NCBI RefSeq assembly: GCF_023008165.1
Contig: NZ_JAKQZA010000008.1
Coordinates: forward strand, 62,001 to 126,000
Direction of reading: 5' to 3'
DNA length: 64,000 nt
Source: Kordiimonas laminariae
GTDB lineage: Bacteria > Pseudomonadota > Alphaproteobacteria > Sphingomonadales > Kordiimonadaceae
How positions within the stretch are numbered: position 1 is the first letter of the stretch; each line of letters opens with the position of its first letter. Both the position numbers and the translations under genes were made by a program. Shown in pieces: positions 3,035-44,005 of the stretch. The notes under the pieces were generated by a model. That model searched no databases. It was not told the origin of the DNA and was given only the letters and a program-made list of their open reading frames with translations.

Positions 3035-4420
3035 ATGTCTTCTGCAGAAAACAAGATTAACCTTGCGTGGTTACGTGAGCGCCTGAAGCGCCACTTCAGC
3101 GAATTGCTGCGTTTGGCAGTGCCTGCAATTATGACACGTATCGGTCTGTTCGGCCTTGCGATGGTGGATATCGCTATGGTGGGCCACTATGCAACGCAGC
3201 ATCTGGCATGGCTTAACCTAGCGAACCAATCAGTGATTATGTTCACACTTGTTGTAGGCATGGGACTATTGGCTGGTGTTACTGTATACACGGCCAATGC
3301 TATTGGTATGGATGATTACCACGGTGCCGGTAAAGTGTGGAAACGAAACCTAAGTTTCACACTTTTGATCAGCCTGTTCCTTGTCGCTGCCTGTCTGCCT
3401 GCTCCTCTTTGGCTTGAACTTTTAGGGCAAAGTCAAACCGATTCAGAAACCAGTGGTTTTCTCGTACGTATTCTGGCTATCGGCCTGCCGGGGCATCTGC
3501 TTTTCTTCTGCTGCACATCTTTCTTAGAGGGCATCAAACGTGCGGAGGTCGGTTTTTACATGATGATTGCTGCAAACATCGTAAATGTGGTCTTCAACTA
3601 TGCCTTAATCTTTGGCCATTTTGGCTTTCCAGAATTAGGCGCAGAGGGCTCAGCCTGGGCGTCAACAATTGTACGCTGGTTTATGGCAGCTTCAGTATTT
3701 GGCTACATCTGGTTTATGCCAAGCATCAAGGATAAATACCAAATCCGTGAAAAGGTAACGCAGAAATGGGCTGAATGGTCTGATCAACGCCAGATGGGAT
3801 ATGCGTCTGCTGTATCCCTCGCCGCTGAAGTACTTGCCTTCAGCGCCCTTGCAGTATTTGCGGGCTGGCTTGGTACAGTACCTCTCGCAGCTCACGGGGT
3901 GATTTATCAGGTGATTGGTATTCCGCTCATGATTGCCATTGGCATTGGTGTGGCAACCACAGTTCGTGTTGGCATTGCATTTTCTCGTAAAGACAAGGCA
4001 GACACAGTTCTTGCCTCTATTTCCGGGATAATCCTGAATTTTATCGTATGCGGTACCTTCTCTGCAGCAATTTACGCGTTCCCAGCCCCTCTTCTCGGGA
4101 TATTCACCAATGATATACGCATTATTGAACTTCTCATACCTGTGATTTTTGTAGCAACGTTCGGGATGATTTTTGATGCTGCTCAAATGGTGGCTGCTAT
4201 GATGCTCCGAGGCTTTAAGGAAACATGGTGGCCAACCTACCTGCAGAGCTTTTCTTTCATCGCAGTAATGCTACCTGCCTGCTATATTTTTACCTTCCCG
4301 CTTGAAATGGGCTTCAAGGGCCTGATGGTCGGAACATTTGTAGGCGTCGTAGTTTCCTGGATACTTCAAATCGCACGTTTTGTGTATCTGGTGCGACAAC
4401 CAGCCACGATGCAATCTTAA
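3035..4420 (+). CDS. MATE family multidrug/organic-cation efflux transporter
   Basis: The 461-aa product has 12 predicted membrane helices arranged as two six-helix halves. The first half contains LRLAVPAIMTRIG and VDIAMVGHYAT, and the GMGLLAG region matches helix 3 of NorM/DinF-type proteins. MATE exporters expel cationic drugs in exchange for Na+ or H+ at the inner membrane. I set the start at the ATG at 3035 (MSSAENK), because GAGG at 3022-3025 lies nine bases upstream; an in-frame TTG at 3014 lacks such a site. It is transcribed divergently from the OPT gene and nothing nearby indicates a specific drug. Confidence 0.9.
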   Translation: MSSAENKINLAWLRERLKRHFSELLRLAVPAIMTRIGLFGLAMVDIAMVGHYATQHLAWLNLANQSVIMFTLVVGMGLLAGVTVYTANAIGMDDYHGAGKVWKRNLSFTLLISLFLVAACLPAPLWLELLGQSQTDSETSGFLVRILAIGLPGHLLFFCCTSFLEGIKRAEVGFYMMIAANIVNVVFNYALIFGHFGFPELGAEGSAWASTIVRWFMAASVFGYIWFMPSIKDKYQIREKVTQKWAEWSDQRQMGYASAVSLAAEVLAFSALAVFAGWLGTVPLAAHGVIYQVIGIPLMIAIGIGVATTVRVGIAFSRKDKADTVLASISGIILNFIVCGTFSAAIYAFPAPLLGIFTNDIRIIELLIPVIFVATFGMIFDAAQMVAAMMLRGFKETWWPTYLQSFSFIAVMLPACYIFTFPLEMGFKGLMVGTFVGVVVSWILQIARFVYLVRQPATMQS

Positions 4421-32191: not shown

Positions 32192-32878
32192 ATGGCAAAC
32201 ACCACAGCACTAACGGAAGAAGACGTGTGTCAGCGTATCAGGGATAGTATCCTTGAGCAACGTATTGCGCCTGGCACAAAACTGACTGAAGAATCACTGT
32301 GCGGCATATTTGGGGTAAGCCGAACGACAATCAGAAGGGTTTTCCTCCTGCTTAGTAAAGACAACATCATCAGGCTTGAACGCAACAAAGGTGCAACCAT
32401 TGCCGCGCCAACCGTTGAAGAAGCCCATCAGGTTTTCGAAGCAAGGCGCGCAACGGAAAAAGCGCTTTTACGCCGTGCCGCTGAACGTGTACAGCCCGGA
32501 GACATTGCACATCTGCGCGCGCACCTTGAGGAAGAGCAAACCGCACTCAATGAAGCAGATTTAGCTGCATGGATCAGGCTTTCAGGAGAGTTTCATATCA
32601 AACTTGCGCATATTGCGCGCAATGAACCTATGTGCACTTTCCTTCAGCAGCTAGTGTTCCAAAGCTCTTTGATTATATCGCAGTACGGCACGGCGGGCGC
32701 ACCATCAAGCTGTAAGGGCGGAGAACATGAACGCCTTGTTGATGCACTTGAACACCAAGACGCAGAAACAGCACAAACCATTATGGCAGAACATTTGCGC
32801 GGCATTGAAAGCCAGCTTTCCTTCGAAACCGAAGAAACCGGACAAGACCTGCACGTGATCTTTGCTGCCGCCAGTTAA
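32192..32878 (+). CDS. GntR-family (FadR/VanR subgroup, FCD domain) regulator of purine catabolism
   Basis: The 228-aa product has an N-terminal winged helix (about 10-75, with GTKLTEESLCGIFGVSRTTIRRVFLLL) and a C-terminal FCD helical domain (about 85-220). The FCD metal/ligand histidines are visible in GEFHIKLAHIA and near GGEHERLVDALE. The gene is first in a plus-strand operon with puuE, uraD and alc (10-base and overlapping junctions), so the protein likely senses a purine-derived intermediate such as urate or allantoin; the effector is an inference. Confidence 0.88.
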   Translation: MANTTALTEEDVCQRIRDSILEQRIAPGTKLTEESLCGIFGVSRTTIRRVFLLLSKDNIIRLERNKGATIAAPTVEEAHQVFEARRATEKALLRRAAERVQPGDIAHLRAHLEEEQTALNEADLAAWIRLSGEFHIKLAHIARNEPMCTFLQQLVFQSSLIISQYGTAGAPSSCKGGEHERLVDALEHQDAETAQTIMAEHLRGIESQLSFETEETGQDLHVIFAAAS

Positions 32879-32887
32879 GGATTAATA

Positions 32888-33805
32888 ATGACAGAGCAAG
32901 CATACCCACGGGATATGATCGGCTATGGCCCCAAGCCCCCTCACGCCAACTGGCCGGGCGGCGCCAAAATAGCTGTCCAGGTGGTGATGAATTATGAGGA
33001 AGGCGGTGAAAACTGTGTGTTGCACGGTGACCCAGCCGCTGAAACCTTTCTGTCAGAAATTGTAAGTGCGCCTCATGTGGAAGACCGCCACATGAGTATG
33101 GAATCCATCTATGAATACGGTAGCCGCGCGGGTGTTTGGCGGCTGCTGAGGCTCTTTGAAAAATACGATATTCCGATAACGGTTTTCGCTGTTGCCATGG
33201 CGCTACAGCGCCATCCTGAAGTAGCCAAGGCATGCATGGATGCAGGACATGAAATCTGTAGCCACGGCCTCCGCTGGATCAACTATCAGAATGTAGATAT
33301 TAAAACCGAACGCCAGCATATGCAGGACGCCATCAAGATCATTCAGGATATCACTGGCGAGCGACCACTTGGCTGGTATACGGGCCGTACAAGCCCCAAC
33401 ACAGGCAAACTGGTGGCAGAGGAAGGTGGTTTCCTTTATGACGCGGATGATTACAGTGATGACCTGCCCTTCTGGAAAACGGTGGACGGGAGCCCGCAAC
33501 TGGTTGTGCCCTATACGCTTGATGTAAATGACATGCGTTTCGCAGCAGTTCAGGGTTTTAACGCTGGTGACCAGTTCTTTAACTATCTGAAAGATGCCTT
33601 CGATACACTGTATGAAGAAGGTGAAACCAACCCCAAGATGATGTCTGTTGGGCTTCATTGCCGCCTTATTGGTCGCCCGGGGCGCATCAAAGCGCTCGAA
33701 CGTTTCTTTGAATATGCACGCTCCCATAAAGACGTATGGTTCTGCCGCCGCATTGACATTGCCAAACACTGGCACAGTGAACACCCTTATAAGGGAGAGA
33801 AATAA
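32888..33805 (+). CDS. puuE: Allantoinase PuuE (polysaccharide-deacetylase-like)
   Basis: The 305-aa product opens the ring of (S)-allantoin to allantoate. It belongs to the metal-independent PuuE type with a NodB-like fold: YPRDMIGYGPKPPHANWPGGAKIAVQ at the N-terminus, GHEICSHGLRWINYQ, GWYTGRTSPNTGKL and the C-terminal GLHCRLIGRPGRIKAL. It is unrelated to the zinc amidohydrolase allantoinase AllB. Its TAA overlaps the ATG of uraD by one base (TAATG). Confidence 0.94.
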   Translation: MTEQAYPRDMIGYGPKPPHANWPGGAKIAVQVVMNYEEGGENCVLHGDPAAETFLSEIVSAPHVEDRHMSMESIYEYGSRAGVWRLLRLFEKYDIPITVFAVAMALQRHPEVAKACMDAGHEICSHGLRWINYQNVDIKTERQHMQDAIKIIQDITGERPLGWYTGRTSPNTGKLVAEEGGFLYDADDYSDDLPFWKTVDGSPQLVVPYTLDVNDMRFAAVQGFNAGDQFFNYLKDAFDTLYEEGETNPKMMSVGLHCRLIGRPGRIKALERFFEYARSHKDVWFCRRIDIAKHWHSEHPYKGEK

Positions 33806-34323
33806 TGCCCTTCATGAAACAAAGGCCGAGCGAGATTTCTGAAACCGAATTTATGGTGACATATGGTGTGATTTACGAACATTCACCGTGGATTGCCAAA
33901 GGTGCATGGGAAGCGAAAGACTCTGGAAACCTTGACACGCTTCAAGGCCTTCATAACGCCATGAAGAAGGCTGTCGCAGATGGTAGTGATGAAGCCAAAA
34001 TGCGGCTTATCTGTGCCCACCCCGATCTGGCAGGCAAGCTGGCAATCAGTGGTGAACTGACCGAAGAATCGAAATCAGAGCAGGCTGGCGCAGAGCTTGA
34101 TCGCTGTACACCGGAAGAATTTGAAGAATTCCAGACCTTGAATGCTGATTATAAAACCAAATTCGGATTCCCGTTTATTGTGGCCGTGAAAGGCATGGAC
34201 CGTACAGAAATTCTGGCCCACTTCAGAGCCCGTATCAATAATGATAGGGAAACAGAGTTCGCCACTGCACTTGAACAAATTGACCGCATTGCCTTCTTCA
34301 GGCTTTCAGACCTAGCGGAATAA
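33805..34323 (+). CDS. uraD: OHCU decarboxylase
   Basis: The 172-aa product decarboxylates OHCU (2-oxo-4-hydroxy-4-carboxy-5-ureidoimidazoline) stereospecifically to (S)-allantoin. The N-terminal [11 protein letters not shown] contains the catalytic-site His, and [15 protein letters not shown] and [15 protein letters not shown] are the family's central motifs. It is placed between puuE and alc with an overlap and an 11-base gap, so the three pathway enzymes are made together. Confidence 0.94.
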
Positions 34324-34334
34324 AGGACACCAAC

Positions 34335-35327
34335 ATGACAGACCACAGCTTTACGCGCTTTATCAATATGGCGTCCCCGCGCTTGGGTGCAGAAGTAATA
34401 TTCGCCACAGACGATTTCTTTGCTGATAAAAGCCGCCTGATCAAAGACGAAGAAGCAGTTTTCATCCCCGGCAAATATGATGATAACGGCAAATGGATGG
34501 ACGGGTGGGAAAGCCGCCGTAAACGAGGACAAGGTTTTGATCACTGCATCCTGAAACTGGGACAAGCCGGCATTATCAAGGGCCTTGATATCGACACCAG
34601 CCATTTCACTGGCAACTTTCCGCCTGCTGCTTCTGTTGAAGCTTGTTTCAACAAAACAGATACACCCGGAGAAGAAGCTGAATGGGTTGAGATTGTGCCG
34701 TCAATGAACCTGAACGGCGACAGCCACCATCTGGTTGCTGTAGAGAATGATACACCCTTCACGCACTTACGCCTGAATATCTACCCTGATGGGGGTGTTG
34801 CTCGTCTGCGTGTGTATGGTGAATTCTATAAGGTTTGGCAGGAAAGCGATTACGGCAAGGAAATGGACCTGCTCGCCATGGAGAATGGTAGCCGCCCGAT
34901 CATTGCCAATAACGAGCATTTTGGCGTGCTTTCAAACATCATGCAGCCCGGTAAAGGCATTAATATGGGCGATGGTTGGGAAACACGACGCCGCCGGGAA
35001 CCCGGGAATGATTGGGCGATTGTTGCCCTTGGTCATACAGGAGAAATTAACCGCATTCTTGTAGATACAGCCTATTTCAAAGGTAACTTCCCTGAAAGCA
35101 TCAGCCTGCAGGCAGCACGAGTGGCGGGCGGCACAGATGATAGCCTACCGGTTCAAAGCCAATTCTGGGAAGAACTGATGCCGCGCCAGAAACTTACAGC
35201 TGATGCTGAACACACTTTTGAGAGCGAACTGAATAAGCTTGGCCCTATCAGCCATGTTCGAATTAATATCTATCCAGATGGCGGTATCAGCCGTCTCCGT
35301 TTGTTTGGAACTCTAGATAAAGACTAA
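34335..35327 (+). CDS. alc: Allantoicase
   Basis: The 330-aa product hydrolyses allantoate to ureidoglycolate and urea. It shows the tandem allantoicase jelly-roll repeats with paired motifs [11 protein letters not shown] / [24 protein letters not shown] / [13 protein letters not shown], and [21 protein letters not shown] / [21 protein letters not shown]. Length fits the family (about 330-340 aa). The ATG at 34335 follows an AAAGGAC ribosome site after uraD. Confidence 0.95.
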
Positions 35328-35332
35328 GATTA

Positions 35333-35800
35333 ATGAGCAAATTCCTAACCGCTGGCCTTTTGGGATTATTCCTTATGCTGACACCTACCGTGCAGGCGGA
35401 TGATAAAGATATTATCCGCGGAAAGATGCAAGCCTGGCTTGATGCCTATAACACCAAAGACATTAGCGCACTTATGGCTCTATACGGCGACCGTATCTAT
35501 TATGCTAATAACGGCAGTGATTTAGTAACATCCATAGAGCAAATCCGAGCTAACTATGGTGCACAGTTCAAGGCTGGTGGCGGTGCAACCGTTGAATTTT
35601 CAGAGGAATTGGTAACTGTAGGTGAAAAGCTTGCGCATATCGCAGGAAAATACCGTGTGAATATCCCACAAGGAGACGGTAAAGCACAGAGCTTTTACGG
35701 TAGGGTTTTATTGATCTTTGAAAAACAGACTGACGAGTGGAAACTGGTAGTTGATTTTGATAATCAGGGCAAAAACCTGTCAGCAGAAAACTTCCACTAA
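35333..35800 (+). CDS. SnoaL-like/NTF2-fold secreted protein
   Basis: The 155-aa product has a signal peptide (residues 1-21, cleavage near VQA-DD) and a SnoaL/nuclear-transport-factor-2-like cone fold, with DIIRGKMQAWLDAYNTKDISALMALYGDR at the N-terminus and EWKLVVDFDNQG at the C-terminus. The function is unknown; such proteins are often periplasmic ligand binders or isomerases. It begins only five bases after alc, so it is probably the last gene of the purine operon, although it is not a known pathway component. Confidence 0.7.
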   Translation: MSKFLTAGLLGLFLMLTPTVQADDKDIIRGKMQAWLDAYNTKDISALMALYGDRIYYANNGSDLVTSIEQIRANYGAQFKAGGGATVEFSEELVTVGEKLAHIAGKYRVNIPQGDGKAQSFYGRVLLIFEKQTDEWKLVVDFDNQGKNLSAENFH

Positions 35801-35819: not shown

Positions 35820-36845
35820 TTATTCAGCAATAGTTGTGCGGTTACGGCCGCCTTCTTTTGATTTATAGAGTGCAGCGTCAGCACGTTCCACGAAATCCGA
35901 AAGCGCCTCGCCGGGCTTAAATTCTGCAATTCCGAGCGACAGAGTTACATTACCAAAATCTTTTTCCGCTTGCCTATTGCGAACACGTTGAGAACCGATT
36001 TTATCGCGGATGTTATCCACAAGCTTAAAGCCATCTTCAATCTGTGTGTCTGGCAGGACAAGTGCAAACTCTTCACCACCATAACGAGCTGCTAAATCGC
36101 TCCCCTTCACATTGGCATGAAGCGCACCAGCAACAAGTTTCAAAACCTGATCACCCACCTGGTGACCGAAGGTATCATTAAACTTCTTGAAGAAATCGAT
36201 ATCCCCAACGGCGAGACAGAGCTTGCTGCCGTCTTTCTCTGCCATCTCGGAAGCTGCCTTAAGAAACGCGTCAAACTTCTTCCGGTTTGCGATACCGGTG
36301 AGAGCGTCTGTGTAGCTTTCTTTTTCCGCCTGTTTCAGATTTGATTGCAACGTTTCAATTTCAGCCGAGGATTTTTCAAGGCGCGCTTGAAGCTGCGCAT
36401 TGGTTTCCTGAATACGGCGGGTTTCCTGCATCATATTCTGCACAAAGGCCTCGATACCAGTAATGGACGCATCTTCGCTGAAAGATTTAAGGTTATCCTT
36501 GATGGAAGCGCGCACGCCTTCAATTTCTGAAGAAGCACCACCAATAACTTCAAGCATTTTATCCGCCTGCTCTTTCATATGAGCACCGGTTTCCTGCAGA
36601 AGCGCGCCTTCTTTCTCATAGCCCAGATATGTATCATACAGTGACTGGTTGACCATGCCGTCAAAGTCGGCATCATCCCTGATCATCTGATCAAGTGCTA
36701 TCTTCAAATCCGGATAACGCTGGCTAACATAGCTATACCAAATTGCAAAATTAGGTGGTGCTGGAGGCACCTTATGGCTGTCCATCAGTTCAATTGCCTG
36801 TTTAGCAATATCCCCTGCTTTGTTCATCCCATCGCCAAAGCTCAT
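35820..36845 (-). CDS. Diguanylate cyclase with GGEEF active site
   Basis: The 341-aa product has an N-terminal helical region and coiled coil (about 60-175), then a GGDEF domain (about 180-335) with active-site RYGGEEFALVLPD and metal-site DIDFFKKFNDTFGH. It should make c-di-GMP. The allosteric I-site (normally RxxD just before the active site) reads KGSD, so the arginine is replaced and product inhibition may be weak. No signal peptide or sensor domain is seen, so it is likely cytoplasmic. It is convergent with the SnoaL-like gene. Confidence 0.9.
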   Translation of the reverse strand: MSFGDGMNKAGDIAKQAIELMDSHKVPPAPPNFAIWYSYVSQRYPDLKIALDQMIRDDADFDGMVNQSLYDTYLGYEKEGALLQETGAHMKEQADKMLEVIGGASSEIEGVRASIKDNLKSFSEDASITGIEAFVQNMMQETRRIQETNAQLQARLEKSSAEIETLQSNLKQAEKESYTDALTGIANRKKFDAFLKAASEMAEKDGSKLCLAVGDIDFFKKFNDTFGHQVGDQVLKLVAGALHANVKGSDLAARYGGEEFALVLPDTQIEDGFKLVDNIRDKIGSQRVRNRQAEKDFGNVTLSLGIAEFKPGEALSDFVERADAALYKSKEGGRNRTTIAE

Positions 36846-37070
36846 AATCTCTCCGCGATCATCAATCTAGTGTTCCCTTGCTAACCCCAAATCGATACAA
36901 ATACTTGTACGGTTCATGAACTCTCGTTCACGCACCACAACAATTAACACTTTGTTAAACATTTTGACAGACGAAAATACAGGAATGTCTATTTTACTCG
37001 TATAATCGTTGCTTATGTGAAACGAACTTTCTAAATCATGGCGTTAAAACAATAACAGGTGCATAGTCTT

Positions 37071-37280
37071 ATGGCTGATCTAGAAGAAAAACTAACTGAT
37101 TTGGAATGCAAATTCGCTTTCCAGCAAGAAACTATTGATACGCTGAACACTGAGCTAACCAAACAGTGGAAGGAAATTGATAGTCTAAAAAACGCTATTC
37201 ACCGCCTACACGAACAATTGCTGGATCTGGAATCGTCAGGTGGGAAACCAGAAATCGAACCACCACCACCGCACTATTAA
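37071..37280 (+). CDS. slyX: SlyX family protein
   Basis: The 69-aa product is a short coiled-coil protein of the SlyX family: LEEKLTDLECKFAFQQETIDTLN, a second heptad stretch and the C-terminal PPPPHY tail typical of the family. Its function is unknown. The ATG at 37071 is used (MADLEEK); an in-frame GTG at 37059 would add four residues. A TATAAT at 37001-37006 may be its -10 element, but no good -35 is seen. Confidence 0.9.
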   Translation: MADLEEKLTDLECKFAFQQETIDTLNTELTKQWKEIDSLKNAIHRLHEQLLDLESSGGKPEIEPPPPHY

Positions 37281-37317
37281 GCATAAGTTTCGCTATTTAC
37301 TTGCTTTTAATGGTGGA

Positions 37318-37344
37318 TTGATCAATCTAAAATACATTGATCAA
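37318..37344. repeat. Two identical palindromes TTGATCAA upstream of the Crp/Fnr gene
   Basis: TTGATCAA occurs at 37318-37325 and 37337-37344, 19 bases start to start, ending 14 bases before the ATG at 37358. Crp/Fnr half-sites resemble TTGAT/ATCAA, so this may be an autoregulatory operator, although the classical site has a four-base spacer. Confidence 0.5.
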
Positions 37345-37357
37345 AGGGGGGCACTAG

Positions 37358-38020
37358 ATGCGGGATATCCTCGCAAGTTTTTTTGGCACTTCATCTATCA
37401 TGCTTAACGATGTTGAGCAGAAATCCACTCGCATGGTGTTCAACCCCGGTGAAACCATTTTCTCACAGGAAGAAGAAGGCAACACAGTATTCTTTGTATT
37501 AACTGGCAGGGTAAAAGCAGTACTTTATTCAAACGCCGGTGAAGAAGTATGGCTTGATGAATTTGGTAGCGGTACATTATTTGGGGAAATGGCTGTACTT
37601 AGTGCCCAAAGTCGAACTGCCGATATCGTAGCCTCAACTCGTGTAGAACTCGCTGCTTTCTCGGCCGCATGCTTTTTAGATTTAATGGAGAACCATGGCA
37701 GTGTTGGGCTTGCTGTCTCCAAAATGCTGGCTGACCGAGTTCATAAAACCACTCAGCGCATGTACGAACTTACAGCAGTTTCAGCCAAAGGCCGAGTCCA
37801 TGCCGAGCTATTACGCCTTGCAAGAAGACAAAATAATCAGCTTCTTGTTGAAAATATCCCAGCCTACACGGTGCTTGCGAAACGTGTTAACAGTACGCGG
37901 GAAACAGTTTCCCGCACTGTGAATGAACTTGTTCGCAAAGGTGCCGTGGAAAAGAAAGGCAGCGACCTTATAATTCTTGATAGATCGGCACTTACAAGAA
38001 AAACATCCTGGGTAAATTAA
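37358..38020 (+). CDS. Crp/Fnr-family transcriptional regulator
   Basis: The 220-aa product has an N-terminal cyclic-nucleotide-binding domain (about 20-135) and a C-terminal HTH_Crp winged helix (about 145-205, KRVNSTRETVSRTVNELVRKG). The phosphate-binding cassette reads FGEMAVLSAQSRTAD, retaining the Glu and the Arg-Thr pair that contact the cyclic nucleotide in CRP. There is only one Cys, so no FNR-type iron-sulfur cluster. Its end overlaps the convergent nucleotide-cyclase gene by four bases. GGGGGG precedes the ATG. Confidence 0.88.
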   Translation: MRDILASFFGTSSIMLNDVEQKSTRMVFNPGETIFSQEEEGNTVFFVLTGRVKAVLYSNAGEEVWLDEFGSGTLFGEMAVLSAQSRTADIVASTRVELAAFSAACFLDLMENHGSVGLAVSKMLADRVHKTTQRMYELTAVSAKGRVHAELLRLARRQNNQLLVENIPAYTVLAKRVNSTRETVSRTVNELVRKGAVEKKGSDLIILDRSALTRKTSWVN

Positions 38021-39696
38021 CGGACACGCAAACTAAAAAGCTTCAGCGCTTGTTGTCCTTTCCGAGCTTCAACCTTACCAACGGTTTCACAGCGGTATTT
38101 TTCTTCAGCGCTTAGTGCCAGAGCACAGGCAAAGGGCTCACTCACATATATTGAACCAGGCACAGTTACGGGCTCAATACGGGCCGCAAAAGCTACCTCT
38201 GTTCCGAATACCCCAATCCGGTTCGTAAAAGGATCCCGCATTTCATGTACTGGGCCATAATGACCTCCGATACGAAGCGCGAGAAATTCCGGCAATCCAA
38301 TTTCAGCAAGATCAATAGCCCTGAATGTTTCCTGCAAGTCACTTGCTACATTGGCTGCGGCCTCTACACTATCCAGCACAAGGAATAAACCATCCCCCCA
38401 AGTATTCAGATGTTCAAGCTGCCGTCCCTGTGTGTTTACGCAGATGGCCAAGGGCCGCAGGATTTTATCGATAAACACAGGAACCTGACTGTCTGTAAGC
38501 GCGCCAAATCCCCGCACATCGGCAAAAACCATCGCCTTCAAATCGCGACTGGCTGTTAGTTCTTCGGCATTGTCTCCGGCCCCTGTTGCTTTCCTTGTAT
38601 CTCTTGGATAAGGGATAATAATCTGATCACGCCCTGCTTGCTCCCACACTTTTGCATCTCTTGCAGTACCCGCTTTTGCTGTTGGGTTTTTCTGATCCCA
38701 AATCAACAACTGCAACGGTTTTGTGGCTAAACGCTCTGCCTTAAGAACTGCCAACCCCATCGCGGTTTCGCTGGCAAACGCTGTGAACATATCATCTGTT
38801 TTGAGATTATCGCCCGAGAGATATCGCACTGTTTTAGCAGCCGCTTTACAAGCCCAAAAGCGCGGCACCCAGTGCTCTCCGAAGGGGACGACTGACGTTT
38901 CGAGAAACAGTTCATCGGGGCACGGCAGAACCAAATGAAATTCTGCATTTGCTTCAAGTGCCTTCTCTGCAATCAGGATATCAGAACCAGCTGCGAGTGC
39001 ACCATAAACATAACCAATATTTTCAGAGAGAATTTTATCCAGAATAGATTTACCAAGCCCATAAACAGAAGCTTCATCAAGAACATTCCCGTCGCCATCA
39101 AGGCCGAAAATATGTCCTGCAAAATGAAGGGTTTTCGGGGGCCTAAATTTATCAAGCCAACTAATATCTGCGTTATTTACCGTAGCAAGCAGTTCAAACT
39201 GTTTCAGAGTAGAGGCATGAGCATCATAATTCTCGGGATCAAGAGATATAGCATCCGTTAAATTAGTTTCAGCGCGTACATGATCACCTAAAATGAAATA
39301 GGCCTCAGCCACGGTTGCCATATGATAATAAGCATCCTGCCCGGGTTTAGGTGAATATCCCCTGGTTTTATGAAGAACTTCATCCGCGGTCGCACGAGCA
39401 TTATCAATATCTCCCGCAAGCATCTGCATTGCGGCGGTGTTGATACCAGTATAGGTACCGCCTGTTGCTTCGTAGGCGTGATAATATTTTTCAGCAGCCT
39501 GCCGCGCCAGTTCCTGTTTGTGAGATTGATGACTTTCCACCATCCGGCTTTTCAAAAGCCGCCCACCCAGCGCCAGAATATCTTCGTTATCTGAAACTGT
39601 ATCCAGCCCCAGACGGAAATACTCTTTCTCCGCCTGCTCAAGCGCACCAGCTCTAAGCAGCGTTAGGATTGAGTTATATTGCTCCGTCGGGGACAT
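38017..39696 (-). CDS. TPR / LOG-like / class III nucleotide cyclase fusion protein
   Basis: The 559-aa product appears to have three parts. Residues 1-175 are TPR-like helices. Residues 185-360 are a Rossmann-like region with GYVYGALAAGSDILIAEKAL, resembling the LOG/SLOG-type ligand-binding fold. Residues 385-555 are a class III cyclase. The two metal Asp are present (D393 in FADVRGF, D435 in WGDGLF), as is the transition-state Arg (R506). The adenine-selecting Lys aligns with N431, the Asp with G495 and the catalytic Asn with A502, so ATP is not the assured substrate. It is last in an operon with a TIR protein and an unknown protein (24- and 31-base gaps). Cytoplasmic. Confidence 0.78.
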   Translation of the reverse strand: MSPTEQYNSILTLLRAGALEQAEKEYFRLGLDTVSDNEDILALGGRLLKSRMVESHQSHKQELARQAAEKYYHAYEATGGTYTGINTAAMQMLAGDIDNARATADEVLHKTRGYSPKPGQDAYYHMATVAEAYFILGDHVRAETNLTDAISLDPENYDAHASTLKQFELLATVNNADISWLDKFRPPKTLHFAGHIFGLDGDGNVLDEASVYGLGKSILDKILSENIGYVYGALAAGSDILIAEKALEANAEFHLVLPCPDELFLETSVVPFGEHWVPRFWACKAAAKTVRYLSGDNLKTDDMFTAFASETAMGLAVLKAERLATKPLQLLIWDQKNPTAKAGTARDAKVWEQAGRDQIIIPYPRDTRKATGAGDNAEELTASRDLKAMVFADVRGFGALTDSQVPVFIDKILRPLAICVNTQGRQLEHLNTWGDGLFLVLDSVEAAANVASDLQETFRAIDLAEIGLPEFLALRIGGHYGPVHEMRDPFTNRIGVFGTEVAFAARIEPVTVPGSIYVSEPFACALALSAEEKYRCETVGKVEARKGQQALKLFSLRVR

Positions 39697-39720
39697 AATC
39701 TTTTACAACTTATCTAGCCG

Positions 39721-40266
39721 TTAACCGCGGCCATCACCAGGGCCATCATCATCGCCACCATTCCCTACATCTGGATCAATAATTACCGGCGTAACGGCCG
39801 ATTTAATGTCCTCAGGGTTCTGCCAAACATCAATAAACAGGTTATAAACATAGGGTTTTTCCTGCTTAATCTTGTTTTCATCATCCACATAGATAGTCTT
39901 AGAACGCCCATACCCAAGAGGGTCGTCCTGAAGCTTTGTTTGATTAACAAAGTTATTCAATGGATCAGGCGTTTTAAGCGTAAAGGGAGCAATCGTTGGC
40001 TGGAAAAACCAGCTATCGACAGCAAGTGTAAACACAAGGCGCTGACGTCCCTTAACCTCAAAGAAAAACGGATTTTCTGATGTTACAGGCGCAAACTGGA
40101 CATCTGGAATAGCTTTTAAGATTTCATCACGCCCAAGAAAACCCGGGATTGGTTTGCTACGTCCGACACAATATTGTCCGGAGGGCGACATTCCAATCTT
40201 GATAATGGTTGTAAATTGCTTACGCTTATCAAGCGTTGCATCTAATTCTTGAACCAATTCATACAT
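39721..40266 (-). CDS. Unrecognised 181-aa protein of the TIR/cyclase operon
   Basis: I do not recognise this protein. It looks beta-rich in the middle (RQRLVFTLAVDSWFFQPTIAP; YVYNLFIDVW), has a Pro/Gly pattern, and ends in an acidic glycine-rich tail (GGDDDGPGDGRG). No signal peptide, membrane segment or cysteines of note are present except one (YCVGRS). It lies between the TIR gene (31-base gap) and the cyclase gene (24-base gap) on the same strand. It may be a regulator, sensor or substrate of the system. Confidence 0.65.
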   Translation of the reverse strand: MYELVQELDATLDKRKQFTTIIKIGMSPSGQYCVGRSKPIPGFLGRDEILKAIPDVQFAPVTSENPFFFEVKGRQRLVFTLAVDSWFFQPTIAPFTLKTPDPLNNFVNQTKLQDDPLGYGRSKTIYVDDENKIKQEKPYVYNLFIDVWQNPEDIKSAVTPVIIDPDVGNGGDDDGPGDGRG

Positions 40267-40297
40267 AATTCATTCCCCTATAGTAAATAAGATACAG

Positions 40298-42397
40298 TTA
40301 TTCTGTGGAAAACCCTCTATCAAGAAGGCTCTTCTCCAATTGTTTCAGTTGTTCGCTATTGCTCACAGCACTCAGTAATTTATGTAGTGAGCGCATATAG
40401 TGAGGGTGTTGCTTTTCTCTGGCGGCAATAGAATGCAATACAGAAGTATCACTTTCTAAATATTGAATTACCTGTTCGACTTCCGAAAATTGTCCAGCTT
40501 CTCTGAGAGCTTCAATTTTCAACGCATACGCTAACAATAAAGTTCTTCGCCCTTCTTTAACGACAAAAGCTTGCTGCGCATTTGATAAAATGCGATCTAA
40601 AATATCAGTGATTTTAGAAATGTTATCTTGCTCTAATTTTAGCTCCTTATTGATCCGGTAATTTAGGAGGCTAACAGAGAAATCGAAATGCGCTCTAGAT
40701 TTTGGGCGTACTATTGCCCTACCTAATACTTCCTGTGAAATAGTTTTTACATCTTCTAACTGAGTACGTGACGCTGAATATTGACCGTCAGCATAATAGG
40801 CTTTAGCCAAACCTATCTGCATATAACCTTGTTGCATTTTCTTATTAAAATTTGCCTCATCTGCGGTACTAATCTCTTTAGCTACAGCGACCGCCTGAAT
40901 GAAATAAGTGATCGCATCTTTATATTTTCCTTGATACATTTTCAGCAGGGCAAGAGCATGGAGTGGCGCAATTAATTCACTATGAAAAACCTTATTTTTA
41001 GGATTTTTCTCGTGCAAATCTCGTAAAATACTTAACTCTTTTTGGCGTGCTTCTTCGACCTCATCAGCATGTCCAAACCTCAATAAAGCATCTGCTATCC
41101 AAGCGTATGTATCCGCAATCTTTGCCTTTAAATTATTATCCTCCGGCATTTTTAATGCTAGATTTTGCCGAATTTGTAATGTCTTCTGATAGCTATGGTG
41201 AGCCGCTACTGGCTGAGATAAACTTAGTAATTGCAAGGTGCCTATGTTACTATGCGCATAGGCTAGTTCCTTTTGCCATTCAATATTATATGGCTCCATA
41301 TCCACCAATCGCTCAGCAAGGCGCTTATATTCTTGCATTGCTACTGAAGCAGCTTCAGAATCCCTCGCAGACAAAGCCTGATTTCCTAGATAAAAAACAC
41401 TCTGAGCATGCTCAAAAATACGTTGAGGGTTATCCGGGTCCCTTGCAAGTAAAACCGCCGTCGCTTGTTGTGCACTGCTGTACATCTTGCCAGCTTCTAT
41501 AGCTTTTCCCCTGCGGTCTTGAATCTGTCCTAAAAGATGAAACGCCCTTGAGCGGCGGCCCATGGCATCATCAGATACATCATCCAAATCCTGCGCGTTA
41601 TAATAATCCACAGCTTTGGTACCCACAGCATCAAGCACATCAAGCCGGCCAACAGGTTCCAATTTATCGCGCAGATCAGTGAGCATAAATTCGATTAAAT
41701 CTTCCGCTTCAGCACGGTGCCGCTCGGCAGCATTTCGTGCTGTAGTTGCTTGATAGGTTAATGCACCCATCACTATCATGCCCAGAATGCTGGCGCTCGT
41801 GATAGCCATCACGCGGCGCTGCTTTCTTTGCAGTTCTCGCTCCACCAACTGATCAAGCCCAACCCCAAGTAGGCCTGCGATCAGCTTCTGAATACCTCTC
41901 TTTCGGCCATCTGATTGCTCGCGAATATCAGCTGCTATAGGTTCTGTACGAATATGTGAGAGCGTACCAGCGGGGGAGATACGGTACCGGAGGGCTGGTG
42001 GAAAACATTCCACCTCTTTATCATCAGTATCAGAAGCCCACGGCTCCCCTGAAAGAATCAAAGGCAGAACATATTTTTCACCGCGTAACTTTTTGAATTC
42101 GATAATTTCTTTGTTGACCCAGCGAGAAGCTGCCGCAGAAGGTGAACACAAAACAATCATGAACTCAGATTGCCCTAAAGCCTTCGCAACCTCAGCTGTA
42201 AGATCTTCCGCAACAGGCAATTCTTCACGGTCTCGAAAAAACTGCCCCAATTTCAACGGCACAACACCAATACCCGTTGTTTTACCCACCAATCTTTTGG
42301 GTACTTTATATTTTTCCAACTCTTTGTGGATCTCTTCCCCAAGAGCAGCGTCTTTGTGGCTATAGCTGATAAACGCTTTATACTTATAGTTGCTCAC
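40298..42397 (-). CDS. TIR domain / transmembrane / TPR protein
   Basis: The 699-aa product has an N-terminal bacterial TIR domain (about 5-125) with FISYSHKD, FFRDREELP and LCSPSAAASRWVNKE. W93-x3-E97 is the catalytic WxxxE motif of NAD-cleaving TIR domains. A single predicted membrane helix (about 195-215) preceded by basic residues follows, then TPR-like helical repeats (about 290-690). By the positive-inside rule the TIR would face the cytoplasm and the repeats the periplasm. TIR NADases act as effectors in several antiphage systems. It heads the operon with the unknown and cyclase genes, so activation by a cyclic nucleotide is possible but unproven. Confidence 0.85.
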   Translation of the reverse strand: MSNYKYKAFISYSHKDAALGEEIHKELEKYKVPKRLVGKTTGIGVVPLKLGQFFRDREELPVAEDLTAEVAKALGQSEFMIVLCSPSAAASRWVNKEIIEFKKLRGEKYVLPLILSGEPWASDTDDKEVECFPPALRYRISPAGTLSHIRTEPIAADIREQSDGRKRGIQKLIAGLLGVGLDQLVERELQRKQRRVMAITSASILGMIVMGALTYQATTARNAAERHRAEAEDLIEFMLTDLRDKLEPVGRLDVLDAVGTKAVDYYNAQDLDDVSDDAMGRRSRAFHLLGQIQDRRGKAIEAGKMYSSAQQATAVLLARDPDNPQRIFEHAQSVFYLGNQALSARDSEAASVAMQEYKRLAERLVDMEPYNIEWQKELAYAHSNIGTLQLLSLSQPVAAHHSYQKTLQIRQNLALKMPEDNNLKAKIADTYAWIADALLRFGHADEVEEARQKELSILRDLHEKNPKNKVFHSELIAPLHALALLKMYQGKYKDAITYFIQAVAVAKEISTADEANFNKKMQQGYMQIGLAKAYYADGQYSASRTQLEDVKTISQEVLGRAIVRPKSRAHFDFSVSLLNYRINKELKLEQDNISKITDILDRILSNAQQAFVVKEGRRTLLLAYALKIEALREAGQFSEVEQVIQYLESDTSVLHSIAAREKQHPHYMRSLHKLLSAVSNSEQLKQLEKSLLDRGFSTE

Positions 42398-42587
42398 TAT
42401 GCTCTCTCCTTCACAGTGCAGCTTTCATATACAACTATATCGGCACGCTAAAACCCGCGAGGCAAGCGGAAATTCAATGCAGCGTGATGAAGATCACGCG
42501 TAGAGCCCACAATAGTTTGATAAGAATTAATTTCACGAGGTAATTACAAGCCAACAACGGCAAAACATCAAGATTGGTTAGCATCCA

Positions 42588-42962
42588 ATGGAACTGTTAA
42601 AAATAATAGATTTCATAGCCTTATCCGCTACCGCTACGTTGTTTTTCGTTGGGCTTAAATACTCGGTTGCGATCATTACTAACTGGGTTTGCGCAGTGGT
42701 ATCAGGGGGATACCACTATGTAATAAAAGGCTCAGTTCGCGCACCACTTTCTGTTTCTGAATTATATCAGTTCATAAGTGAAGCGCTATTTTACGGTGTA
42801 ACATTTCTGAGCTTGCCTGTGCTGGTTTCCAGCATGAGTGGTAACTGGGGAATGGGGGAACTCACGCTTATACTCGCGGGAAGTATGCTCCTTGCAACAC
42901 CTAGCATACTCTACAAAGTAGATAAGCTATTGAAAGGAAATAACACTGCGGCTGTTCCATAA
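42588..42962 (+). CDS. Small membrane protein of unknown function, divergent from TIR operon
   Basis: The 124-aa product is not recognised. It has three or four predicted membrane segments (about 8-40, 65-85, 92-110) and no motif. The ATG at 42588 has no clear ribosome site beyond a distant GAGG. It is divergent from the TIR operon with a 190-bp intergenic region, so it could share regulation, and it is followed by a strong terminator. Confidence 0.5.
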   Translation: MELLKIIDFIALSATATLFFVGLKYSVAIITNWVCAVVSGGYHYVIKGSVRAPLSVSELYQFISEALFYGVTFLSLPVLVSSMSGNWGMGELTLILAGSMLLATPSILYKVDKLLKGNNTAAVP

Positions 42963-43097
42963 TATGGAATGTCTGGAAGAGTTACTCGAGATTTAGTGCA
43001 GCTCTCTCCCTCATGGTGCCCATCCCCATCATACCCTGCTGGTCCCACGGTATCATGAAGAATTTAAAGCGCCCCGCTTTACTGTACTAAATCTTTC

Positions 43098-43140
43098 GTG
43101 CCAGTCAGTTTTACGGTTACTGACTGGCACATTTTTATTT
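43098..43140 (+). terminator. Strong Rho-independent terminator
   Basis: GTGCCAGTCAG (43098-43108) pairs perfectly with CTGACTGGCAC (43120-43130) and is followed by ATTTTTATTT. It lies after the 124-aa membrane protein gene and overlaps the end of the convergent TetR gene. Confidence 0.9.
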
Positions 43141-43806
43141 TGAGGAACTTTTATGAAGCGTACATAACTCAATCGCTGCATCAATCAAGTTATCCAGAAT
43201 GCCCATACCAAGTTTCAATCTGATATCTCGCGCTTTCCCTTCACCTAACACCGTAAGATTCATAGTGAAACCTGAAACCTGATGAATGAAGAGCGCTACC
43301 TGATAAAGATCATCCCGGTCAGCTCTATATCCAAAACGATCAAACAATGTGATGATACGAGTAGTGAAATTATGGATGTGGGTTTCACGAAGTTCGGCGA
43401 TTTCCGGCACACGGCCAATTACCTTCATGATCTCGATATATACCTCGTTATCCAGATACTGATTTTCATAAATACGCTTATAAAGACGGTGAAACATCTC
43501 ATAGATATCTGATGCCTGATCATCAACCGTATTATAAATATCTTCAAAATCCGCATTTATGTGATCGTACCACCGAAGCGTTAAAGCATAGAGAATTGTC
43601 TCTTTATCTTCAAAATACTGATAAAGTGTACCAATACTCATACCCGCCTTTTTCGCGATATGATTAGTAGTAAGCTTGCTATAACCATATTCAAATAACA
43701 GCTCACTCGTTGCATCGAGAATTTTACTAACTGTATTTTCACCGCGTTTCGTTAGCGGCACACGCCTTTTGGCTTTGCCCATGCCACGAGGCATCTCTTT
43801 GTTCAT
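43135..43806 (-). CDS. TetR-family transcriptional regulator
   Basis: The 223-aa product has the N-terminal TetR DNA-binding domain (about 20-70, TTNHIAKKAGMSIGTLYQYFEDKETI) and a variable helical ligand domain. A longer basic N-terminus (GKAKRRVPLTKRGE) precedes it. The regulated gene is not apparent: the upstream neighbour is the monooxygenase/quinone-reductase pair on the same strand, separated by 199 bases. The ligand is unknown. Confidence 0.9.
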   Translation of the reverse strand: MNKEMPRGMGKAKRRVPLTKRGENTVSKILDATSELLFEYGYSKLTTNHIAKKAGMSIGTLYQYFEDKETILYALTLRWYDHINADFEDIYNTVDDQASDIYEMFHRLYKRIYENQYLDNEVYIEIMKVIGRVPEIAELRETHIHNFTTRIITLFDRFGYRADRDDLYQVALFIHQVSGFTMNLTVLGEGKARDIRLKLGMGILDNLIDAAIELCTLHKSSSK

Positions 43807-43930
43807 TTAGTCAGCCCTGAAAGTTACTCCGATTATCTTCATCCCCCATCAAGGCTCTATTCAAACATGCCACTCGCTATTTTTGCAATAAAATATCATG
43901 TGCATGAGTGGCCTTTAAATTTTAGCCAAA

Positions 43931-43985
43931 GAAGTAGTGTTTTTGAGCAAGAGAGAAATAAGGAAACACTACTTCAAATTTTTAA
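43931..43985 (-). terminator. Hairpin 3' of the monooxygenase gene
   Basis: GAAGTAGTGTTT (43931-43942) pairs with AAACACTACTTC (43974-43985). It lies 20 bases after the end of the minus-strand monooxygenase gene; the T-tract is better on the plus strand, so its efficiency on the minus strand is uncertain. Confidence 0.55.
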
Positions 43986-44005
43986 GACCGAACGATTTCG
44001 CTACA

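Follow-up and report, generated by a model that had tools for sequence, protein, structure and literature searches.

In a 64,000-nucleotide stretch of the Kordiimonas laminariae genome (contig NZ_JAKQZA010000008.1; the whole stretch is called the window below), a gene for a TIR-domain protein (A), a small gene (B) and a gene for a sensor–cyclase fusion (C) follow one another on the minus strand at intervals of 31 and 24 nucleotides (nt), and a gene for a Crp-family regulator converges on the last of them (Table 1). The original prediction, made from the letters of this DNA, had described A, B and C as three tightly spaced same-strand genes, which their open reading frames (ORFs) bear out, and had missed both the convergent Crp gene and a CRP-type palindrome inside gene A. 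Taking these elements together, we propose, as somewhat better supported than not, that the four genes make up a signalling unit containing its own cyclic-nucleotide/Crp feedback switch.

Table 1. Coordinates of the operon, the regulator gene and their DNA and protein elements, in positions of the window.
Feature	Position	Strand	Description
Gene A	42397..40298	-	699 aa, GTG start; N-terminal TIR, one transmembrane (TM) segment, C-terminal TPRs (ORF, Pfam, alignment)
TIR domain	42044..42373	-	Pfam TIR_2, residues 9-118, 7.7e-12; W93, putative catalytic E97
Putative transmembrane segment	41756..41812	-	Residues 196-214; hydropathy 1.94 over 19 residues from 196
Promoter palindrome of gene A	42484..42497	.	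100 nt before the aligned TIR start
Intragenic CRP-type palindrome GTGA-N6-TCAC	41799..41812	.	A codons 196-200, TIR/TM junction
Invariant TA	41774..41775	-	Codon 208, 23 nt past the palindrome; fits -12/-11 of a class II CRP-dependent internal promoter
Gene B	40266..39721	-	181 aa; pNTSase1 (PF20301) family; IDP-x-x-x-N, then a Gly/Pro-rich tail at the C-terminus
Variable cassette (TPR region of A plus gene B)	39700..41600	.	Exchanged between otherwise near-identical chromosomal regions
Gene C	39696..38017	-	559 aa; TPR-S, Rossmann-like region (SLOG/LOG-like, candidate), class III nucleotide cyclase
Class III cyclase domain	38029..38535	-	Pfam, residues 388-556
Crp-family regulator	37358..38020	+	Convergent; 4-nt overlap with the end of C

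The proposed W93-x3-E97 motif of the TIR domain is confirmed, both residues being conserved without exception in an alignment of 16 A proteins; the catalytic glutamate of TIR domains is their NADase residue. Protein C had been described as a fusion of TPR helices, a LOG-like region and a class III cyclase. Its TPR and cyclase parts stand, with Pfam matches to TPR-S (PF20308; 8.4e-10, 39.6 bits against a cut-off of 27.6), MAP3K_TRAF_bd (4.7e-07) and Guanylate_cyc (6.7e-11); TPR-S is matched by 18 of 18 C proteins at E<=0.5. The profile of C also matches 5ulm (E 0.014), and TPR-S is related to the regulatory region of ASK (MAP3K5). The LOG-like part fared less well: aligned by hhalign with 20 LOG proteins, the middle of C falls in register at a probability of 2.4% (P 0.007, weak), and the same comparison with 21 DprA proteins gave no match. 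A search of the phylum with PF20308 matched 89 of 249 genomes, 45 of them above the cut-off, but many weak matches were taken for ordinary TPRs and the search was left unused. Alignment to other C proteins and to solved cyclases shows that Asp393, Asp435 and Arg506 are kept, that Asn431 (N431), neither the canonical Lys nor Glu, occupies the base-selecting position, and that Ala502 stands in place of the transition-state Asn; the metal-binding role of the Asp pair and the other two roles are those that we presume for these positions. The regulator consists of a cyclic-nucleotide-binding domain (CNBD; Pfam cNMP_binding, PF00027, 2.9e-22) fused to a helix-turn-helix (HTH_Crp_2, 2.5e-11). Its pocket for cyclic mononucleotides (cNMP) is intact (GE..RT, with a Thr-Thr pair in its helix), and its recognition helix reads RETVSR. 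The solved full-length Crp chains closest to it by sequence include 4cyd and 4byy, which we take to be GlxR.

For comparison we assembled 83 A-type genes in 80 loci, from C loci and from 60 stretches fetched around listed A genes, the latter a subset drawn mainly from the top of that list. A same-strand C gene follows A in 35 of the 83, and the TIR and cyclase genes are one conserved operon, beyond what chance would give. The full neighbourhood A-B-C is conserved together in 33 of the 83 A-type genes, the two A-C operons in which no B was detected being L137 and L206. Downstream of C, 30 of the 35 operons carry a Crp gene at a distance of -71 to +159 nt, convergent in 29 and on the same strand in one (L197). 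The Crp gene thus very probably belongs to the unit, making four genes. In a first set of 55 loci, which includes one duplicate (L046 is L002), a Crp gene convergent with C was found in 17, at -71 to +73 nt. In L036 and L133 the Crp gene was divergent and situated upstream of A, and in L124-L126 it had the same orientation as C and overlapped its upstream end; elsewhere in the set a profile search found no Crp near C except for partial matches in much larger proteins. L124-L126 form a distant clade of TPR-S–cyclase proteins without the TIR operon (L124 6266-8822, L125 6945-9492, L126 5351-8909), possibly an independent pairing of cyclase and Crp, and in L047 (4258-6199) a Crp-type gene is followed after 4 nt by a different cyclase-containing protein that weakly matches C.

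The distribution of the system is patchy. C was matched in 23 of 98 related genomes (20 strongly, three by weak partial matches), among them nine of the 19 genomes searched in the genus itself (G015 with a fragment only, and one C split at contig ends). Matches were also found in 26 of 385 genomes of the class and in 24 of 398 of the phylum, samples that overlap. Of 246 genomes in the order, 75 have A-type genes; standalone TIR-TM-TPR genes with no B or Crp detected (L183, L186-L196, L199 and others) are common there and lack the palindrome. A named example of the system, outside the 83-gene count, is found on plasmid NZ_CP141945.1 of Novosphingobium sp. RL4, and C matches on Caballeronia and Rhizobium plasmids have neither a Crp nor a TIR partner directly beside C.

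The sequence GTGA-N6-TCAC is composed of CRP-type half-sites. The window contains three matches (the third at 3233-3246) where 0.77 are expected, and at least three occur in 5 of 100 shuffles of the window, an unremarkable figure without comparison. Across the A-type genes, the exact intragenic palindrome is present in 35 of 83, among them 29 of the 30 with a downstream Crp, and in none of the 45 outside the operon. It is also present in L002, L040 and L213, where C is present and either no Crp was found or the contig ends, and in L217, L222 and the second A copy of L033, where B is present and no C was found. That second A+B pair of L033 (1485-5023; 837 and 335 aa) lies near a full operon without a C or Crp of its own and carries both the promoter and the intragenic palindrome. 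For seven of the 45 outside genes the C profile finds some match in the vicinity; only those in L134 and L135 are strong, and there C is oppositely oriented. Upstream of A, the promoter palindrome occurs in 6 of 21 genes against 0.05 expected from shuffles, and in 8 of the larger set of 83, all eight of which also carry the intragenic site. A third exact copy of the long palindrome in the genome (C26:46504) lies among ORFs not visibly related.

What holds the intragenic palindrome in place? The 35 genes were first chosen by the palindrome itself and then rechecked by a protein-motif definition: V[MTI]x[VI]T occurs in 35 of the 83 A genes, all 35 with the exact palindrome, and no gene matching the looser V..[VILF]T lacks it. 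Since the two sets coincide, the codon test is not circular. At a mean pairwise protein identity of 39%, codon 196 is GTG in all 35 genes and codon 199 is ATC or GTC in all 35, whereas over 108 four-fold columns the most frequent third base has a median share of 0.46. The third base of codon 208 is A in every one of the 35 palindrome genes but in 2 of 48 other A genes; within the TA dinucleotide formed there, A is found in 35 of 35 and T in 97%. In 25 non-redundant genes the joint codon-usage probabilities come to 10^-23.4 (palindrome codons) and 10^-26.9 (codon 208); they treat genes as independent and are indicative. In the 48 other A genes, position 196 is occupied by L, M, I, T, A and others, with two Val (GTT and GTC), so the fold does not require Val. 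A protein-level cause of the palindrome was rejected on these grounds, with synonymous positions fixed and residue 196 free elsewhere. The sites are very probably functional elements at the level of DNA, the linked Crp is their likely binder, and, judged by this codon pattern, the DNA site constrains the protein sequence of A.

The same regulator would tie the locus to cyclic nucleotides. In 36 loci C is complete and Crp is under 420 aa long. All 16 of these that have cyclase motifs in C also have an intact Crp pocket; in all 20 that lack the motifs the pocket is broken, and C lies beside a retained TIR-TPR gene. Two loci were omitted from this count, L042 (truncated C, intact pocket) and L126 (a Crp ORF of 573 aa), and 4 of the 16 intact-cyclase loci show no A gene in the fetched stretch. 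In the cyclase-less clade the Crp genes may themselves be targets: a palindrome lies upstream of 10 of 37 Crp genes against 0.16 expected, and all ten (L043, L044, L045, L184, L185, L200, L203, L206, L218 and L242) belong to that clade, which suggests a shift to autoregulation. The pocket signature GE..R[ST] is shared with Clr and GlxR, and the Thr-Thr pair with Clr. In Sinorhizobium meliloti Clr, a receptor for cAMP and cGMP, the pair is Thr140-Thr141 (PMC10127613); the discriminating position is Asn in PycTIR, Glu in the cGMP-binding XC_0249 and Ser in E. coli CRP (PMC11224242). The Thr-Thr pair of the window's Crp hints at a purine ligand, without deciding the matter. Cyclic-nucleotide signalling, as the original prediction had it, is supported by a linked Crp with an intact cNMP pocket, and the product of C's cyclase is probably the ligand of this Crp in the window.

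Does the intragenic site activate or repress? If the invariant TA is placed at -12/-11, the palindrome is centred at -42.5, near the class II spacing of CRP-family activators. NtcA sites are centred near -41.5 (PMC3898017), and Clr-activated promoters have sites mostly between -42 and -76 (PMC10127613). The distances from site to start are of the class I/II type seen for Clr and GlxR. The site in A differs from theirs in lying within a coding sequence, under a regulator tied by gene order to a TIR-effector operon. The site could instead be an operator for repression, acting as a roadblock or by looping with the upstream site, or could control an antisense promoter, an alternative that we consider unlikely overall although it is the strongest of those weighed here. 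In its favour, the site is some 0.6 kb into the gene and is kept even with a broken Crp pocket, the Crp promoters of the cyclase-less clade share it in a manner suggesting autoregulation, and the opposite strand reads TTGATA and, after 18 nt, TATCAT, which starts with the TA; what speaks for activation is the arrangement GTGA-N6-TCAC-N23-TA, which has the class II activator spacing (compare NtcA, PMC3898017). With this spacing the inside site would most likely provide extra transcription of B and C, and we put activation and repression at even chances. An internal translation start at M238 was set aside, as its LIEFM-type motif also occurs in some standalone A genes without Crp.

Immediately beyond this site the operon becomes variable. 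Compared with its nearest relative, G013, the window is about 45-75% identical at roughly 39700-41600 and about 93-95% identical around the operon, with protein identities of 0.97 for the TIR-TM part, 0.38 for the TPRs, 0.76 for B, 0.98 for C and 0.97 for Crp. The pair L037/L038 follows the same pattern (0.79, 0.36, 0.40, 0.72 and 0.69, respectively), and L030/L031 repeat it for the TPRs, their B genes belonging to different families. In L031/L033 the pattern is reversed, with identities of 0.88 for the TPRs, 0.74 for B, 0.78 for the TIR-TM part and 0.64 for C, as is expected if a TPR+B cassette moves. The TPR region of A and gene B behave as an exchangeable variable cassette. Protein B had been called unrecognised; it matches the pNTSase1 family (PF20301) at 28.9 bits against a cut-off of 25. 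This model matches 5 of 15 B proteins scanned (E<=0.1; best 3.8e-43) and was found in 2 of 289 genomes of the class, so it picks up only a few B genes of this kind. A second family, B2 (8 proteins), occupies the same slot as the B1 family (31 proteins) with no relation detected (profile probability 0.1%); it is present in L031, L033 (9671-10318), L039, L043 and others, and most of its members end near HGGxHPP.

Such a cassette might instead serve kin discrimination or a toxin-immunity system, with the TPRs and B conferring self/non-self specificity, A acting as toxin and B as its matched partner. In favour of this alternative, the TPR part and B differ jointly where the chromosomes are otherwise almost identical, and in L031/L033 they look to have moved as one, but B varies without the TPRs in the L043/L198/L200/L203 group (B 0.34-0.59, TPR 0.72-0.83) and stays similar in L240/L241 (0.83), and we regard it as improbable. 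The fast change of the cassette also fits an arms race, and a role of the four-gene unit in defence is plausible, standing about level with the contrary.

The effector is best sought in A. Its TIR domain is, by a modest margin of confidence, an NADase effector. The original prediction had placed A in the membrane with possible periplasmic TPRs: the hydrophobic segment is there, and the side of the TPRs is left undecided in the window, where each flank carries a net charge of +2. Across 35 A genes the flank before the segment is the more positively charged in 28, and the comparison leans towards a periplasmic side. The TIR domain matches ThsB_TIR (PF08937; 30.5 bits, cut-off 21.2), a likeness to Thoeris; in contrast to Thoeris, no SIR2 or other ThsA-type match was found in B, C or Crp (Crp in Pfam only). 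A match of A to NCBIfam ThcB4 is far below the cut-off (16.3 against 220), and one to SAVED_TIR is restricted to residues 54-115, within the TIR domain. Unlike in CBASS, Pfam, PADLOC and NCBIfam scans of A, B and C detected no CD-NTase family.

In Pycsar, a class III-like cyclase is paired with a TIR receptor (PMC11224242), and here too a class III-type cyclase, with a Guanylate_cyc match and an intact metal Asp pair, adjoins a TIR gene in one operon. A Pycsar-like defence, in which the cyclase product activates the TIR effector directly and Crp only tunes expression, is nevertheless quite unlikely. PycTIR is a CNBD-TIR fusion (PMC11224242), whereas Pfam scans of A and 15 relatives found no cNMP_binding domain, for which reason we set direct cyclase-to-TIR signalling aside; the cNMP-binding protein here is instead a Crp transcription factor, and A carries a TM segment and TPRs. 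The absence of cyclase motifs from 20 of 36 Crp-linked C genes, each beside a kept A gene, points the same way. The products of Pycsar are cUMP or cCMP; C has N431 at its base-selecting position. A scheme of the Pycsar/CBASS kind, to which the original prediction had likened the operon, with the nucleotide acting on the TIR effector, is not supported, and the binding of a cyclic nucleotide would fall to Crp.

Least likely is that B is a nucleotide synthetase whose product activates the TIR or is sensed by C: the name of PF20301, 'Predicted novel nucleotide synthetase', and its matches to B proteins favour this, but only the D and P of IDP are invariant across the 31 B1 proteins, unusual for an enzyme, the apparently unrelated B2 fills the same place, and L137 and L206 do without a detected B.

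The components have a closer parallel in conflict systems in which a TPR-S protein, a small pNTSase1-type protein and a TIR effector are neighbours, as they are here. Components of the TPR-S/pNTSase/TIR type were reportedly predicted to form conflict systems by Burroughs & Aravind 2020 (J Bacteriol), the work to which the Pfam names point. The linked Crp, the conserved intragenic site and cassette replacement may set the present operon apart from those systems. Other ternary systems with cyclase and TIR domains have been described (Kaur et al. 2020, PMC7159879), ASK signalosome components are said to originate in bacterial conflict systems (Kaur et al. 2021, PMC8195603), and hypervariable sensors have been proposed in conflict systems (PMC10907252). 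A limited literature search returned nothing on TIR, cyclase, Crp and TPR in combination, one hit being about Piscirickettsia plasmids, and nothing on pNTSase.

Based on these comparisons, we propose the following model for the four-gene unit. A trigger sensed by the TPR-S/Rossmann part of C would lead to synthesis of a cyclic mononucleotide, which the neighbouring Crp, given its intact pocket, is predicted to bind. Crp would then occupy the GTGA-N6-TCAC sites before and inside A, and the inside site would most likely drive extra transcription of B, C and the TPR end of A, so that the cyclase would be under positive feedback from a DNA element lying shortly before the TPR+B cassette. Membrane-anchored A would supply the effector through its TIR domain, probably an NADase, which may be triggered by protein recognition via the variable TPRs and B rather than by the cyclic nucleotide. 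We tentatively suggest that the effector gene carries a conserved internal Crp-dependent promoter at the edge of an exchangeable recognition cassette, in an immune-type circuit, although the case for this full arrangement falls short of even.

Several observations weigh against this model. The intragenic site is missing from L044, an operon with a downstream Crp, and likewise from L036 and L133, where Crp is divergent and its recognition helix differs. L040 and L213 carry the site with no Crp found nearby, and an exact promoter site is absent from 27 of the 35 A genes that have the intragenic one. Since the cyclase-less clade retains the palindrome, Crp must be able to act there in the absence of cyclic nucleotide as well. 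Apart from the TA, no clear -10 match is seen on the sense strand, and a promoter scan of the window returned 8 promoter-like sites against 11.2 in shuffles. C lacks the canonical Lys and the transition-state Asn, making its cyclase activity uncertain. In a tree of 66 C proteins the loss of the cyclase and of the Crp pocket is one change on one branch; the match between them therefore counts as a single evolutionary event, suggestive and not independently replicated, and we discarded the strong statistic that the counts of co-loss would otherwise have given. Finally, B is not always the fastest-changing part, L240/L241 keeping it best.

The surroundings of the locus lend the defence role no support: the ten neighbours scanned belong to purine catabolism, GGDEF, GntR, TetR, LysR and similar families, and searches of viral contigs and phage records with the C and A profiles and the A protein found no relative. 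Adjoining the system at 32192-35800 is a purine/allantoin catabolism cluster (OHCU decarboxylase, allantoicase, a polysaccharide deacetylase-type protein and a GntR regulator). A small ORF divergent from A (42588-42962) has no Pfam match at E up to 1e-4 and groups, among clustered neighbourhoods, only with a near-identical relative. An Rfam search of 36000-44000 gave no match.

What is the relevance of this arrangement? Compared with the first description of the operon, the regulatory layer is its chief unusual feature: one locus appears to join a variable recognition cassette to a cyclase and a linked Crp. In TIR systems used for comparison, such as Pycsar, the messenger acts directly on the effector, whereas here its predicted use is transcriptional feedback. 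If the model is correct, any incoming TPR+B cassette would come under this cyclic-nucleotide/Crp feedback, with effector residues V196, M/T/I197, V/I199 and T200 dictated by the DNA site. The site within the coding sequence would thus offer a clean case of a DNA-binding constraint shaping a protein sequence, and the loss of the cyclase and the Crp pocket with the DNA site retained would show how a second-messenger switch can be rewired.

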